Shown piece by piece: positions 27,072 to 34,009 of a stretch of DNA of 64,000 bases (its first letter is position 1; each line of letters begins with the position of its first letter). Source of the DNA: Hylemonella sp. (GTDB taxonomy: Bacteria > Pseudomonadota > Gammaproteobacteria > Burkholderiales > Burkholderiaceae_C); the NCBI GenBank assembly GCA_030695415.1, contig JAUYQZ010000013.1, forward strand, positions 1-64,000. Reading direction: 5' to 3'. The notes below the pieces were generated by a model. The model worked only from the letters and a program-made list of their open reading frames with translations. It was not told the origin of the DNA and ran no database searches. The position numbers and the translations under genes are program-made.

Positions 27072-27120
27072 TTGACGCCTGAGCTTGATGCGTCCATAAT
27101 GGATCTGTTTTGGATCCAAA
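27072..27120 (+). promoter_or_regulatory. Toxin-antitoxin promoter and palindromic operator
   Basis: TTGACG (27072-27077), a 17-base spacer and CATAAT (27095-27100) form a good sigma70 promoter. Just downstream is the perfect 12-base palindrome TTTGGATCCAAA (27109-27120), with a second GGATC at 27101. The palindrome ends eight bases before the antitoxin start, the expected site for autorepression by an RHH antitoxin. Confidence 0.8.
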
Positions 27121-27128
27121 GTAGCGCC

Positions 27129-27446
27129 ATGCCCCATCTTTCCATCAAGGACGTCCCGGCAGCCTGGGCGGAAGCCCTGCGCCAGCGCGCGCTCCAGCAC
27201 CACCGATCCTTGCAGGGTGAGTTGATGGCTATCCTGGAGCAGGTGCTCACACAGCCGCCAAGCAGCCCTGCACCGGCTGGGCCGGTCGCTGGCCCTGGCC
27301 TGGACCGGACCGGTCGGCCTGTGCTGCGCCAGGGCAGCAAGACGCTGGCGCAGGTGCGTCAGGAGCTGCTGGCCCGGTATCCGCAAGCCATCACGGCGCA
27401 GGCGTCCAGCGTCGCGCTGATCCGCGAGGGGCGTGAGAGCCGATGA
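27129..27446 (+). CDS. FitA/VapB-like ribbon-helix-helix antitoxin
   Basis: A 105-residue protein. Residues 1-40 (MPHLSIKDVPAAWAEALRQRA) fit an Arc/FitA-type ribbon-helix-helix DNA-binding domain; the rest is a longer, proline-rich and helical tail that would bind and neutralise the toxin. The start at 27129 directly follows the palindromic operator. The stop overlaps the toxin ATG by four bases, the standard arrangement for VapBC-type modules. The tail is longer than in short FitA proteins. Confidence 0.85.
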   Translation: MPHLSIKDVPAAWAEALRQRALQHHRSLQGELMAILEQVLTQPPSSPAPAGPVAGPGLDRTGRPVLRQGSKTLAQVRQELLARYPQAITAQASSVALIREGRESR

Positions 27447-27868
27447 GCCAGCTGCACATTGCCGAACCCCCGGCGCATTACCAGGCCCGTCCGCCCATCG
27501 TGGTGGATTGCAGCGCGCTGGCCGGTATCGTCTTTCGTGAGCCTTGGGGTGAACAGGCATGGGAGCGGCTGGAGGCGCGCAGCCTGCACGCGCCCTATCT
27601 GCTGCAGGTCGAAATCGCCAGCGTGGCCGTCAAGAAGCTGCGTCGCGGCGAGGAGCATGCCGCCTACGGACTGGGGCTGGCAGCCGAGATGGACATCGAC
27701 CTGCACGCCGTCGACCCGGTGGCTGTGACCACCCTCGCGCAACGCTATCAGCTCAGTGCCTACGATGCGGCCTACCTGTGGCTGGCCTCCGAGCTGCGCT
27801 GCCCGCTGGCGACCTTCGATCAGCAACTGGCCCAGGCGGCTCACAGCCACCTCGGCAGTCTGGCCTGA
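27443..27868 (+). CDS. PIN-domain toxin (VapC-like)
   Basis: A 141-residue PIN-domain ribonuclease. The acidic catalytic residues appear as VVDCSAL, the glutamate in [16 protein letters not shown] and LATFDQQL, so the active site looks complete. It would cut RNA, in known VapC proteins often tRNA or rRNA, when free of antitoxin. It overlaps the antitoxin gene by four bases and ends 52 bases before ssb. Confidence 0.88.
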
Positions 27869-28406: not shown

Positions 28407-28437
28407 CCCCGGGAGGGTCGTTGCGGACCGATTGAAG

Positions 28438-28469
28438 CCCCGCCAACCGTACGGTCGGCGGGGTTTTTT
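28438..28469 (+). terminator. Strong intrinsic terminator after ssb
   Basis: CCCCGCC (28438-28444) pairs with GGCGGGG (28457-28463), with the inner ACCGTACGGT also self-pairing, followed by six T. It separates ssb from the RND operon. Confidence 0.92.
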
Positions 28470-28481
28470 GTCCCCCGGGCC

Positions 28482-28511
28482 TTGTACTCCTGGGGGTATG
28501 TCAGGTATACT
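28482..28511 (+). promoter_or_regulatory. RND operon promoter with CsoR-type operator in its spacer
   Basis: TTGTAC (28482-28487) and TATACT (28506-28511) with an 18-base spacer form a sigma70 promoter. The sequence TACTCCTGGGGGTATG (28485-28500) overlaps the -35 and spacer. It has the form of known CsoR/RcnR-family operators, in which TAC and GTA flank a C/T-rich half and a G-tract. The CsoR-type gene at 33647 closes the same operon, so autoregulation of all five genes is likely. Confidence 0.75.
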
Positions 28512-28534
28512 GCACCGAGTATATGGAGAAAGCC

Positions 28535-29593
28535 ATGAAATCGATCCACGCCCTCGCCTTTGTCGTTTCCCTCGCCGTCCTGGCCGGTGCGCCTGTTCTG
28601 GCCCAGGGCGGCGTCACCGTGCCGACGGTCCAGATCGGCGCGCGAGACGTCTCTACCGGTTATGAGATCGATGGCGTCATCGAGCCGGTCAAGCAGAGCG
28701 TGGTCTCGGCCCAGGCTTCCGGTCGCGTCGTCAAGCTGCTGGTGAAGATGGGCGATCGCGTCAAGGCGGGCCAGCTGCTGGCCACCATTGACGACCAGGA
28801 AACCGCGGTGGGAGTGCAGCGCAGTCAGGCGCACGTGGCCCAGAGCGAGGCCGAGCTGCGCAACGCCCGCGTCAACTTCGAACGCACGCGGGACCTGCGC
28901 GCCCAGGGCTTCGTCAGCCAGGCTGCGCTGGACGTGGCCGAAACCCAGTACAAGGCGGCTCAGGCCGGCAACGCCCAGGCCTCGGCCGGCGCGCGTGCCT
29001 CGGCCCTGTCGCAGGGCTACACGCGCGTGACGGCGCCCTATGACGGCTGGGTGCTGCAGACACACGCCGAAGCCGGCGATCTGGCCGTGCCGGGCAAGCC
29101 CATCGTGACGGTCTACGCACCGCTGCCGCTGCGCGCCGTGGTGCAGGTGCCGGCCTCCCTGGCCGACAGCACCCGCGCGGCCAGGGAAGTGCTGGTGCAA
29201 CTGAGTGAGGCCAATGGGGACACCCGGTGGGTCGCGCCGGTCAAGCGCAGCGCCATGCCGGCCGCCGACCCCGTGTCGCAGACGGTGGTCTGGCGCCTGG
29301 ACCTCTCGTCCCAGGCGGCGCAGAATCTGCTGCCGGGCCAGCAGGTGCGTGTGCGCTTTGTCGGCGGCCAGGTCAGCCGCACCGTGGTGCCTGCTGCCGC
29401 TGTGCTTCGCCGGGGTGAGTTGACCGCCGTGTATGTGGCCAGCGAGCGTGGCTTCGTGCTGCGCGCCGTGCGCCTGGGGGCCGATCACGGGGCCGAGGGC
29501 GTGGAAATCGTGGCCGGGCTGGCCGCCGGCGAGCGCGTCGCGCTCGACCCGGTCAAGGCCGGCCTGGCTGGCGCCGTTGCCGCCAAACCTTGA
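28535..29593 (+). CDS. RND efflux periplasmic adaptor subunit
   Basis: A 352-residue HlyD/AcrA-type membrane fusion protein. A signal peptide (MKSIHALAFVVSLAVLAGAP, cleavage near VLAQG) is followed by a lipoyl-type domain split around a short helical hairpin (QSEAELRNARVNFERTRDLR), a beta-barrel and a membrane-proximal domain. The ATG at 28535 is preferred over 28523 because GGAGAA lies four bases upstream of it. The adaptor links the inner-membrane pump to an outer-membrane channel; no outer-membrane gene is in the operon. Confidence 0.9.
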   Translation: MKSIHALAFVVSLAVLAGAPVLAQGGVTVPTVQIGARDVSTGYEIDGVIEPVKQSVVSAQASGRVVKLLVKMGDRVKAGQLLATIDDQETAVGVQRSQAHVAQSEAELRNARVNFERTRDLRAQGFVSQAALDVAETQYKAAQAGNAQASAGARASALSQGYTRVTAPYDGWVLQTHAEAGDLAVPGKPIVTVYAPLPLRAVVQVPASLADSTRAAREVLVQLSEANGDTRWVAPVKRSAMPAADPVSQTVVWRLDLSSQAAQNLLPGQQVRVRFVGGQVSRTVVPAAAVLRRGELTAVYVASERGFVLRAVRLGADHGAEGVEIVAGLAAGERVALDPVKAGLAGAVAAKP

Positions 29594-29601
29594 GGTCCAG
29601 C

Positions 29602-32600
29602 ATGAAAGACAGCCAGGAGCAGCGCATGGGAATTTCCGGACGCATCGCGGCGGCCTTCCAGGCCAACGCCATCACGCCTTTGCTGGCCCTGGTGGCCCTG
29701 CTGCTGGGTCTGTTCGCCGTGCTCGTGACGCCGCGCGAAGAAGAGCCGCAGATCAACGTGACCATGGCCAATGTGCTGATCCCCTTCCCCGGGGCCAGCA
29801 GCATCGACGTGCAGAACATGGTGGCGCGCCCGGCCGAGCAGGTGCTCAGCCAGATCGCCGGCATCGAACACACCTATTCCGTGGCCCGTCCGGGCCTGGC
29901 CGTTCTGACGGTGCAGTTCAAGGTCGGTGTGCCGCGTACCGAAGCGCTGGTGCGCCTGTACGACGTGCTCAACGCGAATCAGGACTGGATGCCGCGCGAC
30001 CTGGGCACGCTGAGCCCCATCGTCAAGCCCATGGGTATCGACGATGTGCCGGTGCTGGCCGTGACCCTGTGGAGCAAGGAAGGGGCCCCTGCGCATGAGC
30101 TCGAGCGCGTCGCGCACGAGGTGGAGACCGAACTCAAGCGCGTGCGAGGCACCCGCGAGGTCGAGACCATCGGCGGCCCCGGCCGTGCCGTGCACGTCTG
30201 GCTGGAGCCCACGCGCCTGCGCGCCCGTGGCATCGACGTGCTGACGCTCAAGCAGACTCTGTCGGCTGCCAACTTCGGCATGCCCGCGGGCAGCGTGCTC
30301 GATACCAAGGCCAGGAAGGCCAGCGGCGCCTCGCAGATGCTCAGCGTCGAGACCGGCGAGTTCCTGACGTCAGCGAAGGACGTGGGCAACATCGTGGTCG
30401 GCGTGCACCAGGGCGCGCCGGTGTACCTGCGCGAAGTGGCCCGCATCGAGGCCGGCGCCCAGCAGCCGCAACGTTATGTCTGGTTCACGCCGGGTGCCGC
30501 CATGGCCAAGGCCGCGGGCGCCGACACCAGCGCCGCCGCCGGCCAGGTCTACCCCGCCGTCACGCTGACCGTGACCAAGAAGCCGGGCGAAAACGCGGTG
30601 GACGTGGCGCGCGCCGCCAACGAGCGCGTGCAGGCCCTGCGCAACACCATCATCCCCTCCAATATCGAGTCGACCGTCACCCGCAACTACGGCGCGACCG
30701 CGGCCGACAAGGCCAACAAGCTGATCCAGAAGCTGGCCTTCGCCACCGGCTCGGTCATCCTGCTGGTCGGATTTGCGCTGGGCCGGCGCGAGGCAGTCAT
30801 CGTCGGTGCAGCCGTGATCCTGACGCTGATGGCCACGCTGTTCGCCTCCTGGGCCTGGGGCTTCACGCTGAATCGCGTTTCGCTGTTCGCGCTGATCTTC
30901 TCCATCGGCATCCTGGTGGACGACGCCATTGTGGTGGTGGAGAACATCCACCGGCATCAGCAACTCACGCCCGATGCACCGCTGCGCGAGATCATCCCGC
31001 GTGCCGTCGATGAAGTGGGCGGCCCCACCATCCTGGCCACGCTGACCGTGATCGCCGCCCTGCTGCCCATGGCTTTCGTGTCTGGTCTGATGGGCCCCTA
31101 CATGAGCCCGATCCCGATCAACTCCAGCCTGGGCATGGCGCTGTCACTGGCCATCGCCTTCACCGTCACGCCGTGGCTGGCGCTCAAGCTGATGAAGGAG
31201 CACGGTCCTGCCCATGGCGGACCCGACGCGCACGCCAGCGGCGGCATCGGCGCCAAGCTGCAGACCGTTTTCACCCGTGTGCTCACGCCTTTCCTGACCA
31301 GCTCGCGCCAGCGCATGCTGCTGCTGGCCGGCATCCTGGGCGCGCTGCTGCTGTCGGTGGCGCTGACCCTGGTGCCTTCCTCGTTTGTCGGCGTGGTGCT
31401 CAAGATGCTGCCCTTCGACAACAAGAGCGAGTTCCAGGTGCTGGTCGAAATGCCGGCCGGCGCCCCGCTGGAGGACACGGCCGCGACCCTGCACGAGCTC
31501 GGCGCCTATCTGGCGCAGCAGCCCGAGGTGCAGGACCTGCAGGGTTACGCCGGTACGGCCTCGCCCATCACCTTCAACGGCCTGGTGCGCCAGTACTACC
31601 TTCGTGCTGAAGCCGAGCAGGGCGATCTGCAGGTCAACCTGGTGGACAAGCAGCACCGCAGCGACAAGAGCCATGCGATTGCGCAGCGCCTGCGCCCCGA
31701 TCTGGAAAAGATCGGCTTGAAGCACGGTGCTCGCGTCAAGGTGGTCGAAGTGCCGCCGGGCCCCCCCGTCATGAGTCCGCTGGTGGCCGAGATCTATGGT
31801 CCGGACGAGGCCGGTCGCCAGCAACTGGCACAGCGCGTGGCCCAGGCCTATAGCGCGACGCCGGACATTGTGGGTGTGGATACCTCGCTGAAGGAAGACG
31901 CGCCGCGCGCCTGGCTGCGCGTGCGCCGCCAGCGCGCCGAGTCGCTCGGCATCCCGGTGGCCGCCGTGGCACAGACCGTCTCGGCCGCGCTCTCGGGCAC
32001 CGACGCCGCCTGGCTGCACGACGCCCAGTCCAAGTACCCCGTGCCGGTGCGCCTGCAGTTGCCGCGCGACAAGCAGGTGGGCCTCGACGCGCTGCTGGCC
32101 CTGCCCATGCGCGCGGCCAACGGCCAACTGGTCCCCCTGTCTGAACTGGTGCGCGTGGAGCGCGGCGTCATCGACAAGCCACTCTTCACCAAGGACCTGA
32201 CCAACGTCAGCTATGTGTTCGGCGACATGGCCGGCCAGCTCGACTCGCCCCTGTACGGCCTGTTCGCCATTCGCCCGCGCCTGGCAGACGCTGCGCTCAA
32301 GGACACGGGTGAATTGAACGAATACTGGATCAGCCAGCCCACCGACACCTACCGCCAATACGCACTGAAGTGGGACGGCGAGTGGCAGATCACCTATGAG
32401 ACCTTCCGAGACATGGGCGCCGCCTATGGCGTCGGCCTGATCCTGATCTATCTGCTGGTGGTGGCGCAGTTCCGCTCCTACACCACGCCTTTGGTCATCA
32501 TGGCGCCGATTCCCTTGACCATCATCGGCGTCATGCCGGGCCACGCCCTGCTGGACTCACAGTTCACCGCCACGTCGATGATCGGCATGATCGCGCTGGC

Positions 32601-32931
32601 CGGCATCATCGTGCGCAACTCCATCCTGCTGGTGGACTTCATCGAACTGCAGGTCAGCCAGGGCATGAAGTTCCGCGAGGCCGTGGTGCAGTCGGCCGCC
32701 GTTCGCGCCCAGCCGATCGCGCTGACCGGCCTGGCCGCCATGATCGGCGCCTTCTTCATTCTGGACGACCCTATCTTCAATGGCCTGGCCATTTCGCTGA
32801 TCTTCGGCATCCTGGTCTCCACCCTGCTCACGCTGGTGGTGATCCCGGTTCTGTACTATTCTCTATACCACCGGAGGTATGAGAACGCCGATGGCACGCC
32901 CCTCCAATCCGCAACTGTTTCCGCAAACTGA
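29602..32931 (+). CDS. RND efflux pump, inner-membrane transporter
   Basis: About 1109 residues with 12 expected transmembrane helices and two large periplasmic loops. Motifs include the N-terminal TPREEEPQINV and the TM4 aspartates in GILVDDAIVVVENIH needed for proton flow; IIVRNSILLVDFIE marks the second half. An alternative ATG at 29626 has a good AGGAG site and gives MGISGRIAAAFQ, so the first eight residues are uncertain. The pump works with the adaptor encoded just upstream; its substrate is unknown, and the neighbours suggest a redox or sulfur stress product. Confidence 0.92.
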   Translation: MKDSQEQRMGISGRIAAAFQANAITPLLALVALLLGLFAVLVTPREEEPQINVTMANVLIPFPGASSIDVQNMVARPAEQVLSQIAGIEHTYSVARPGLAVLTVQFKVGVPRTEALVRLYDVLNANQDWMPRDLGTLSPIVKPMGIDDVPVLAVTLWSKEGAPAHELERVAHEVETELKRVRGTREVETIGGPGRAVHVWLEPTRLRARGIDVLTLKQTLSAANFGMPAGSVLDTKARKASGASQMLSVETGEFLTSAKDVGNIVVGVHQGAPVYLREVARIEAGAQQPQRYVWFTPGAAMAKAAGADTSAAAGQVYPAVTLTVTKKPGENAVDVARAANERVQALRNTIIPSNIESTVTRNYGATAADKANKLIQKLAFATGSVILLVGFALGRREAVIVGAAVILTLMATLFASWAWGFTLNRVSLFALIFSIGILVDDAIVVVENIHRHQQLTPDAPLREIIPRAVDEVGGPTILATLTVIAALLPMAFVSGLMGPYMSPIPINSSLGMALSLAIAFTVTPWLALKLMKEHGPAHGGPDAHASGGIGAKLQTVFTRVLTPFLTSSRQRMLLLAGILGALLLSVALTLVPSSFVGVVLKMLPFDNKSEFQVLVEMPAGAPLEDTAATLHELGAYLAQQPEVQDLQGYAGTASPITFNGLVRQYYLRAEAEQGDLQVNLVDKQHRSDKSHAIAQRLRPDLEKIGLKHGARVKVVEVPPGPPVMSPLVAEIYGPDEAGRQQLAQRVAQAYSATPDIVGVDTSLKEDAPRAWLRVRRQRAESLGIPVAAVAQTVSAALSGTDAAWLHDAQSKYPVPVRLQLPRDKQVGLDALLALPMRAANGQLVPLSELVRVERGVIDKPLFTKDLTNVSYVFGDMAGQLDSPLYGLFAIRPRLADAALKDTGELNEYWISQPTDTYRQYALKWDGEWQITYETFRDMGAAYGVGLILIYLLVVAQFRSYTTPLVIMAPIPLTIIGVMPGHALLDSQFTATSMIGMIALAGIIVRNSILLVDFIELQVSQGMKFREAVVQSAAVRAQPIALTGLAAMIGAFFILDDPIFNGLAISLIFGILVSTLLTLVVIPVLYYSLYHRRYENADGTPLQSATVSAN

Positions 32932-32947
32932 ACTCAAGGAGTCTGAA

Positions 32948-33172
32948 ATGACCGTAGAACGCTATATCCGCATCATGGCCGGTTTCTTTGTCATGCTGTC
33001 GCTGGCCCTGGGCGTCGAAGCCAGCCCGATCTTCGTGAGCCCCTGGTTCCTGGCCTTCACCGCCTTCGTCGGCTTCAACCTGTTCCAGTCCGGCTTCACC
33101 GGTTTCTGCCCGCCCGGCATTCTGCTGAAGAAGCTGGGCGTGCCTGAAGGCGGCGCCTGCGGCACCAAGTAA
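32948..33172 (+). CDS. DUF2892 (YgaP transmembrane-like) membrane protein
   Basis: A 74-residue protein with two helices: MTVERYIRIMAGFFVMLSLALG and FLAFTAFVGFNLFQSGFTGF. It ends with FCPPGILLKKLGVPEGG and a second cysteine near the C-terminus (residues 54 and 71). This matches the DUF2892 domain, which in YgaP is fused to a rhodanese that handles persulfide sulfur. Start 32948 has AAGGAG six bases upstream. The two cysteines could take part in sulfur chemistry; that is inference. Confidence 0.85.
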   Translation: MTVERYIRIMAGFFVMLSLALGVEASPIFVSPWFLAFTAFVGFNLFQSGFTGFCPPGILLKKLGVPEGGACGTK

Positions 33173-33190
33173 GCCAACAGGACCAGACCG

Positions 33191-33637
33191 ATGAGCGAAG
33201 GGATGCCCCGCGTCACGCTGCGTCAGCAGCGTGACTATCAGTTCGAGATTGACTTCGGTGCCGAGCTGCCCAAGTTGCTCGGTGACGAGCATCCGCCGCT
33301 GGGCCAGGGCGCCGGGCCCACGCCTGGGCAGCTCCTGGCCGCCGCCGTGGGCAACTGCCTGTCGGACTCGCTGCTGTTCGCCTTGCGCAAGTTCAAGCAG
33401 GCACCGGAGCCCATCAGCTGCGAGGTCACGGCCGAGATCGGCCGCAACGCCGACAAGCGCCTGCGCGTGCTCGGCTTCGACGTGCAACTCAGGCTGGGCG
33501 TGGCCGCCGACACGCTGCAGCACCTGGACCGCGTGCTCGAGCAGTTCGAGGCCTTTTGCACCGTCGCCAGCAGCGTGAGCCAGGCCATCCCCACGCGCAT
33601 CGCCGTGTTCGATGCCACGGGCCGTCAACTGAAGTGA
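33191..33637 (+). CDS. OsmC-family peroxiredoxin-like protein
   Basis: A 148-residue OsmC/Ohr-superfamily protein. The two conserved cysteines are C56 (AAVGNCLSDSLLFAL) and C123 (FEAFCTVASSVSQAI), in the positions used for thiol-dependent reduction of organic hydroperoxides or hydropersulfides. It lies 18 bases after the DUF2892 gene and 9 before the repressor gene. Confidence 0.88.
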   Translation: MSEGMPRVTLRQQRDYQFEIDFGAELPKLLGDEHPPLGQGAGPTPGQLLAAAVGNCLSDSLLFALRKFKQAPEPISCEVTAEIGRNADKRLRVLGFDVQLRLGVAADTLQHLDRVLEQFEAFCTVASSVSQAIPTRIAVFDATGRQLK

Positions 33638-33646
33638 AGGTGTGTC

Positions 33647-34009
33647 GTGACTGCTGAAGCCAAAGTGAAAACCACCGCCAAGGCGGCCACGTCGCCCGCG
33701 GGCTCGGAGACCTGCCACCCCACGGTGCTGACCGACGCCGACTCGCGCACCGAAATCCTCAACCGCCTGCGCCGCGCCGAAGGTCAGCTGCGCGGCATCC
33801 AGCGCATGATCGAAGATGGCGAGAACTGCCTCAAGATCGGCCAGCAGTTCAGTGCCGTGCGCAAGGCGCTGGACAGCACCTACCTGCGCATGACGGTCTG
33901 CTTCATGGAGCAGGAACTGGAAGCGCGCCTCTCGCCCGGCGAAGAGAAGAAGGCCGACCTCTCGGCCATGATGAAAGACATGGAAACGCTGCTGGCCCGT
34001 ATGGGCTGA
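33647..34009 (+). CDS. CsoR-family repressor with atypical cysteines
   Basis: A 120-residue all-helical repressor starting with GTG. The core RTEILNRLRRAEGQLRGIQRM is the family's DNA-binding helix 1; C61 occupies the conserved helix-2 cysteine position. At +25 and +29, where copper CsoR has His and Cys (and CstR has Cys at +29), it has Phe86 and Glu90, with a cysteine at +24 (C85) instead. An N-terminal extension adds C23-H24. Copper sensing like CsoR is therefore unlikely; thiol, persulfide or other-metal sensing is possible. As last gene of the operon, it probably binds the operator at 28485. Confidence 0.85.
   Translation: MTAEAKVKTTAKAATSPAGSETCHPTVLTDADSRTEILNRLRRAEGQLRGIQRMIEDGENCLKIGQQFSAVRKALDSTYLRMTVCFMEQELEARLSPGEEKKADLSAMMKDMETLLARMG

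Follow-up and report, generated by a model that had tools for sequence, protein, structure and literature searches.

A putative self-regulated RND efflux operon of Hylemonella sp. with a CsoR-family repressor gene and a likely link to reactive sulfur

Bacteria are known to deal with reactive sulfur by oxidizing it and by exporting sulfite. In a stretch of 64,000 nucleotides from a freshwater bacterium, Hylemonella sp. (assembly GCA_030695415.1, contig JAUYQZ010000013.1, positions 1 to 64,000, hereafter the window) we describe an operon encoding a resistance-nodulation-division (RND) efflux pump, a DUF2892 protein, an OsmC-family protein and a CsoR-family repressor, and we suggest, from comparison with related genomes, that toxic reactive sulfur probably induces the pump. 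The locus comprises the following features.

28434-28474, + strand: intrinsic terminator closing the ssb-like gene upstream (hairpin of -24.1 kcal/mol, z -3.77)
28482-28487, + strand: -35-like hexamer TTGTAC, weak (three of six positions agree with TTGACA by eye)
28484-28499, + strand: operator 1, GTACTCCTGGGGGTAT, two mismatches to ATACC-N6-GGTAT and one to the tighter form ATACYCYNNRGGGTAT
28506-28511, + strand: -10 hexamer TATACT, read from the sequence, after an 18-bp spacer from the -35-like hexamer
28507-28522, + strand: second, imperfect operator-like palindrome ATACTGCACCGAGTAT, read from the sequence, its TATACT...GTAT kept in 11 of 11 relatives
28535-29593, + strand: membrane fusion protein (MFP), the periplasmic adaptor of the RND pump (PF16576; TIGR01730 at 191.1 bits, cut-off 94.9)
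29602-32931, + strand: RND permease (PF00873, 474.1 bits)
32865-32880, + strand: perfect ATACC-N6-GGTAT palindrome in the 3' end of the RND gene, before DUF2892
32948-33172, + strand: DUF2892 / YgaP-like transmembrane protein with Cys54 (PF11127)
33191-33637, + strand: OsmC-family protein with two conserved cysteines (PF02566)
33647-34009, + strand: CsoR-family repressor with Cys23, Cys61 and Cys85 (PF02583, 70.7 bits, cut-off 22.8)

An earlier note on this DNA had described five closely spaced genes on one strand, the last of them of CsoR type, and on both points it was right: the genes fill positions 28535-34009 of the + strand with gaps of only 8, 16, 18 and 9 bp, all five proteins exceed their Pfam cut-offs, and the PF02583 gene is followed by a convergent adenosine deaminase gene. 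On the other side, the strong terminator hairpin after the ssb-like gene is the boundary of the operon.

The promoter is weak by consensus yet conserved. A consensus scan returned no sigma70-type promoter, the TTGTAC promoter lying below its threshold; in an alignment of the window with 11 relatives, TTGTAC recurs in 10 of the 11, and GGGTAT, TATACT and the later GTAT each in all 11. Where the earlier note had seen a sigma70 promoter with an operator in its spacer, the CsoR-type site and the conserved hexamers stand; the -35 is weak and unmatched in the scan, and operator 1 overlaps the -35-like hexamer as well as the spacer. Matches to ATACYCYNNRGGGTAT at up to two mismatches number four in the window (two places, both strands) against 0.49 expected, a count reached by 2 of 100 shuffles. 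The palindrome inside the RND gene is possibly an internal operator or a coincidence; at the equivalent position, none of the 59 relatives' loci scanned has such a site at up to one mismatch.

Relatives were compared in two sets: a named set, the best 80 of at least 492 confirmed regulator matches, and a family set of 59 loci covering 60 matches, the best 56 besides the window's own plus four weaker ones (L087-L090; loci are given by number where they need telling apart). The sets share some genomes, and some loci end at contig ends. Among the matches listed, the named relatives nearest to the window are filed under Curvibacter (Comamonadaceae), followed by Rhodoferax, Hylemonella, Polaromonas and Thiomonas. 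An RND pump of either type, DUF2892 and the regulator occur together in 74 of the 80 named loci and in 44 of the 59 family loci. Taken singly, the named set has this RND type in 60 loci, another type alone in 14, DUF2892 in 75, OsmC in 20 and all five genes in 19, and the family set has 40, 6, 45, 27 and 23, respectively. The conserved RND-DUF2892-OsmC-CsoR neighbourhood expected by the earlier note is therefore found for its core and, in the named set, for OsmC in a minority of loci only; the window's five-gene form is one variant of an operon whose gene content varies around a stable core of pump, DUF2892 and regulator. At L044-L047, L051 and L052, and in Thiomonas at L149, L164 and L170, another RND set takes the place of this one and the regulator and DUF2892 are retained. 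The substitute RND is about 39-40% identical to this RND, and most substitute sets come with a TolC-type gene.

The pattern ATACC-N6-GGTAT was derived from the regions upstream of the relatives' MFP genes, where tandem sites with a spacing of 16-24 bp are often seen. At up to one mismatch, 28 of 36 promoters of the family set and 23 of 51 of the named set contain it, versus 4 of 36 and 7 of 51 for the reversed control and a background of about 0.003 per 160 bp; the tighter form ATACYCYNNRGGGTAT is found in 20 of 36 and 23 of 51, with zero control matches. Across 26 genomes of the genus, the window's own included, ATACYCYNNRGGGTAT gave 53 forward and 2 control matches, distributed over 19 of the 26. 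Fourteen of the 15 perfect matches, in 14 genomes, lie a few bases 5' of pcm, which is followed by a rhodanese gene, and the fifteenth is at a contig end. A TolC-type gene comes after pcm-rhodanese in all four loci read further, the Pfam test of this gene covering the own genome. That genome has three sites at up to one mismatch, before the RND operon, before pcm-rhodanese-TolC (G000:C19:40352) and at G000:C47:9394, the last being 3-4 kb from genes for a Sulf_transp permease and a flavocytochrome c sulfide dehydrogenase (FCSD) flavoprotein; comparison thus suggests these units as candidate members of a regulon. A weak site near the gene of a second flavoprotein resembling sulfide:quinone oxidoreductase (SQR; G000:C2:191504) was excluded from the counts. 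The operator counts are partly circular, because the pattern was drawn from family-set operon promoters and the pcm-rhodanese site of the own genome had been seen before the genus scan; the pcm-rhodanese sites of the other genomes had no part in making the pattern. Operons with the second type of pump retain a site in 4 of 6 cases (L045, L047, L051, L052), 1.5-1.8 kb before the MFP gene and at about the start of the TolC gene.

The regulator is the only PF02583 protein encoded in its genome, and its NCBIfam matches are RicR and FrmR alone, both far below cut-off (30.9 bits against 133 for the FrmR equivalog model NF008464). Its predicted structure has the three-helix layout of CsoR (helices 31-56, 61-95 and 99-119; mean pLDDT 80.9), in which helix 2 begins at C61 and also contains C85. 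The first 20 Foldseek matches are all CsoR, CstR, FrmR or InrS chains, at modest scores (best E 2.4e-3, none below 0.001; query TM-scores 0.37-0.57). Both cysteines are invariant in a 19-row alignment (A1), and they are 24 residues apart, versus about 29 as usual in CstR. For a wider count we used the 59 family loci and the window, 60 rows, less L038 and L079, which lack the anchor; the L038 match holds a stop, L079, read separately, has an intact frame with both cysteines, and one of the two regulators of L069 was counted. Over these 58 regulators, 51 have both cysteines, 53 have the cysteine at +24 and none has a cysteine at +29.

Copper CsoR proteins bind their metal through Cys, His (+25) and Cys (+29), a set also seen in the solved chains; in the window's regulator Cys61 is followed by Phe at +25 and Glu at +29. 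The same Glu occupies the place of the second sensing cysteine of CstR, and standard CstR membership was rejected on cysteine spacing. In its targets and operator the regulator looks CstR-like, but the CstR cysteine pattern is absent; it is best read, on comparison, as a variant cysteine sensor of the CsoR/CstR kind. A tree sets the +24 group apart from the solved CsoR, CstR and FrmR chains, which, with long branches and few columns, is a hint only. Cys23 was considered as a third conserved sensor residue and dropped, a cysteine being found at the same position in 22 of 58 rows; it is not claimed because start codons were chosen by script and several such cysteines may precede the true start. 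Matches scoring more than about 65 bits, which make up 55 of the 59 family loci, were treated as one regulator group on the basis of a gap in the scores and of neighbourhood. Some regulator match is present in 146 of 299 genomes of the family, and the regulator alignment at a limit of 1e-12 matched only 11 of 369 genomes of the class, own included; in the plasmid search 364 records matched the regulator, and identity reached 60-80% in 2 of these.

The RND permease reaches the cut-off of none of the 16 NCBIfam models listed, scoring 222.8 bits against 701.45 for the heavy-metal CusA/CzcA model TIGR00914 and 444.2 and 352.7 against 1250 for the curated multidrug models NF033617 and NF000282. The DUF2892 protein, of 74 amino acids, has PF11127 alone and lacks the rhodanese domain that a YgaP would carry beside its membrane domain; the OsmC protein belongs to the broad family PF02566 and scores 23.1 and 19.6 bits on the Ohr/OsmC subfamily models TIGR03561 and TIGR03562, whose cut-offs are 88.85 and 85.8. 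Among matches of more than 45% identity from both overlapping sets, Cys54 of DUF2892 is present in 120 of 120 relatives aligned, and Cys56 and Cys123 of OsmC in 47 of 47.

Genes of sulfur metabolism recur around the relatives' operons. SQR-like flavoproteins are found in 30 of 80 named and 15 of 59 family loci, a second one in 3 and 2, and a SLAC1/TehA-type (TDT) permease in 2 and 16, respectively, and in L043 a rhodanese gene is inserted in the operon. The flavoproteins resemble type III SQR at scores below the model cut-off (108.3 and 82.1 bits against 525). Away from the pump, orthologous regulators adjoin cysT/cysW/cysA-like genes in L081-L083 and L110; at L121, L140 and L144, where the regulator is also not beside the pump, no such sulfur gene was seen. 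A sister paralog with the same +24 spacing adjoins sox-like genes in L087-L089, L231, L236 and L241, not in L090; the cys and sox names come from reading of the sequences, not from family searches. In L231, L236 and L241 an operator site lies between the paralog gene and the genes leading into sox, and in L238, the fourth genome with the sister paralog, none was found there. The paralog genes (L231 7382-7699, L236 7401-7718, L241 3007-3324) are divergent from the genes leading into sox. A PF02583 search found no sox-linked paralog in the own genome, which has two SoxY matches (G000:C22:5974-6282 and G000:C46:29140-29466). Of 11 distant regulators elsewhere in the class, L172, L173, L176 and L179 are near a YeeE-, SQR-, SoxB- or persulfide-dioxygenase-like gene (again by sequence reading), and L180 and L181 look metal-linked.

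Outside the family, L275 has this RND type with DUF2892 and an SQR-like gene beside a divergent ArsR-type gene, L292 combines it with an ArsR-type gene, DUF2892 and rhodanese, and L290 has it with a DrsE_2 gene. The order RND-DUF2892-SQR-like is found in 5 of the 30 SQR-like loci read, in three other families (L301, L302, L303, L314, L315). In L300, L313 and L317-L322 a gene whose sequence suggests a cytochrome bd oxidase subunit lies a short way downstream of the SQR-like gene. The sulfur theme of the earlier note has gained from these neighbours and from pcm-rhodanese, which shares the operator, and comparison supports the operon's link to sulfur well.

Several known systems resemble parts of this arrangement. 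In Streptomyces coelicolor the ScCsoR circuit unites a persulfide dioxygenase (PDO), a rhodanese and a sulfite transporter with a CsoR-like sensor of sulfane sulfur (PMC7533328). It shares with the arrangement described here a DUF156 repressor of CsoR type, a rhodanese in the circuit and a 16-bp ATACCn6GGTAT site, two of which lie in the pdo promoter. The consensus from the relatives is identical to that site, and an operator of the ScCsoR and CstR type stands before sulfur genes here too. The circuit differs in its sensing cysteines, Cys37 and Cys66, which are 29 apart as against 24 in the window's regulator, and the four genes described include no RND pump, DUF2892 or OsmC (PMC7533328). CstR, a dithiol sensor of reactive sulfur described from S. 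aureus, E. faecalis and S. pneumoniae, with YrkD of B. licheniformis, has the CsoR fold and rhodanese, SQR and sulfite-exporter targets. Its cysteines are C31 and C62 in E. faecalis, and in alignments SpCstR has its second cysteine at +29, the position of Glu in the window's regulator. TTHA1953 of Thermus thermophilus is likewise a thiol-dependent CsoR-family repressor, of sulfur oxidation genes, but has C39 and C68 (+29), a longer site, TACNNTACNNNNGTANNGTA, and targets far from its own gene (PMC10318464).

Nearest in gene composition is Azospira suillum, in which Dsui_3440-3443 form one operon of an MFP, an efflux pump, SQR and an unknown protein that was implicated by Bar-seq and is strongly expressed under H2S, and in which a separate DUF2892 gene is about 10-fold up under H2S (PMC5358917). 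The likeness is one of gene composition, the term CsoR having a count of 0 in the main text of that paper. In searches of the open-licence PMC literature we recognised no other paper nearer to this operon composition and none on the composition itself. In E. coli, YgaP, for whose membrane domain PF11127 is named, is under a sulfide-responsive repressor, YgaV; YgaP has rhodanese activity, whereas the window's DUF2892 protein is the membrane domain alone, and YgaV is a SqrR/BigR homolog, whereas the window's regulator is of CsoR type (PMC9774250). Sulfane sulfur is also reported to relieve the repression of an efflux pump through MexR, in P. aeruginosa, and of an ohr gene through OhrR (PMC9495516).

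We consider it fairly probable, judging from these comparisons, that the locus is a reactive-sulfur stress operon that regulates itself and encodes a variant cysteine sensor. The self-regulation proposed in the earlier note finds partial backing in a regulator gene inside the operon and a CsoR-type site in its promoter, beside the neighbourhood and the sulfur theme. In the mechanism that we infer, the CsoR-family protein would bind and repress the operon through one or two ATACC-N6-GGTAT-type sites overlapping the promoter. On a rise of sulfane sulfur, as polysulfide or organic persulfide, C61 and C85 of helix 2 would react and the repressor would be released, after which the pump, DUF2892, OsmC and the repressor itself would be produced together. 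The MFP-RND pair may work with the TolC of the second unit under the same operator, pcm-rhodanese-TolC, and may clear a sulfur-derived or sulfur-damaged compound from the membrane or periplasm, while DUF2892, with its conserved membrane cysteine, and OsmC, with its two, could handle persulfide or peroxide groups.

A number of observations weigh against this reading. The window's own operon is without SQR, rhodanese or sulfur transporter, and its own operator has two mismatches to ATACC-N6-GGTAT. A scan of the whole own genome with ATACCN6GGTAT was at background (26 matches versus 22 in the control), and therefore the tighter pattern was used. Sites of copper CsoR and of RicR resemble ATACCn6GGTAT (PMC7533328), so the operator is informative about the regulator's family but not about its signal. 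The +24 cysteine is missing from 5 of the 58 regulators; L085 and L086 have the first cysteine only, and the three cysT/cysW/cysA-linked regulators L081, L082 and L083 have lost both (Gly and Ser) and may be no thiol sensors. OsmC is the least constant member of the five-gene unit, being present in only 20 of the 80 named loci, some of which end at contig ends. Seven of the 11 distant regulator loci elsewhere in the class have no sulfur gene within about 1.5 kb, and of the 20 RND loci outside the family that were read with long flanks (29 were read with short ones), 14 show no sulfur marker. In Azospira, deletion of the operon left the rate of H2S oxidation unchanged (PMC5358917), which fits a protective rather than a catabolic role.

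Sulfur may be only the signal, a general RND pump being induced against a non-sulfur cargo such as toxic amphiphiles, respiratory poisons or metal complexes, much as with MexR; we hold this to be a serious possibility, if short of an even one. The 14 marker-free loci are the chief reason to think that the pump may carry something other than a sulfur compound, the other six having DUF2892, an SQR-like gene, rhodanese or DrsE_2 (about 4 kb away in L289), and the 20 including L293, a 44% paralog. This RND type is moreover widespread: among 369 genomes of the class, about 100 have a copy at 53-66% identity, and most of the loci read, with short or long flanks, are without sulfur genes. Its replacement by the other RND, seen in 6 loci of the 59 in the family set and 14 of the 80 in the named set, is in keeping with a pump that serves generally, as is the P. 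aeruginosa precedent (PMC9495516). Against it, within the regulated clade this RND goes together with DUF2892 and frequently also with SQR-like genes, and the same tie appears in other families, in L275 beside an ArsR-type gene and in L301-L303 and L314-L315.

Two further alternatives concern the signal itself. A metal-responsive operon, with Cu(I), Ni(II) or Co(II) as the signal of the CsoR-type protein and as the cargo of the RND, would suit a PF02583 protein whose only NCBIfam matches, far below cut-off, are RicR and FrmR, and metal CsoRs use similar operators (PMC7533328); the ligand positions +25 His and +29 Cys are however Phe and Glu, the RND fails the CusA/CzcA model, and neither a metal chaperone nor a P-type ATPase was noticed among the neighbours, where no dedicated search was made. 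Metal sensing was rejected as the main explanation on the ligand positions and the RND type, and we regard it as very improbable. An operon responding to electrophiles or peroxides (formaldehyde, organic hydroperoxide or quinone), with OsmC as the detoxifying enzyme, seems unlikely rather than remote: the OsmC cysteines are fully conserved, FrmR is in the same Pfam family and thiol sensors often react to several oxidants, but in 60 of the 80 named loci, a number of which end at contig ends, the regulator has no OsmC match nearby, the FrmR equivalog score is far too low, and no formaldehyde dehydrogenase, for which no search was made, was noticed nearby.

If the reactive-sulfur reading holds, it can tentatively be taken further, to a tripartite RND pump dedicated to the export of reactive sulfur, be it polysulfide, organic persulfide or a sulfur-modified amphiphile, and controlled by an as yet undescribed +24 class of CsoR-family sensor that would also stand beside sox-like and sulfur-transport genes in other proteobacteria; we put this forward as a conjecture that is less likely than not. 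A pump of the multidrug class acting in sulfur stress would, if true, tie sulfur metabolism to the type of efflux behind antibiotic tolerance. The +24 group would also offer a clean test of what a shift of one cysteine along the same helix does to CsoR-type sensing, and the candidate regulon, made up of the pump operon, pcm-rhodanese-TolC, the cluster for sulfur transport and sulfide dehydrogenase and, in the genomes with the paralog, sox, is open to direct and cheap experiments in Comamonadaceae.

Some minor observations complete the picture. RND matches at 1e-220 number 160 in the 369 genomes of the class, a group of 41-45% identity included, and the plasmid search gave 54 RND records at E <=1e-100, all below 60% identity. 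In L246-L274, from many families of the class, the pump is 59-66% identical and is often followed by a LysR-type gene. Upstream of ssb in the window, a pair of small open reading frames at 27072-27868 looks, from reading of the sequence, like an antitoxin and a PIN-domain toxin.

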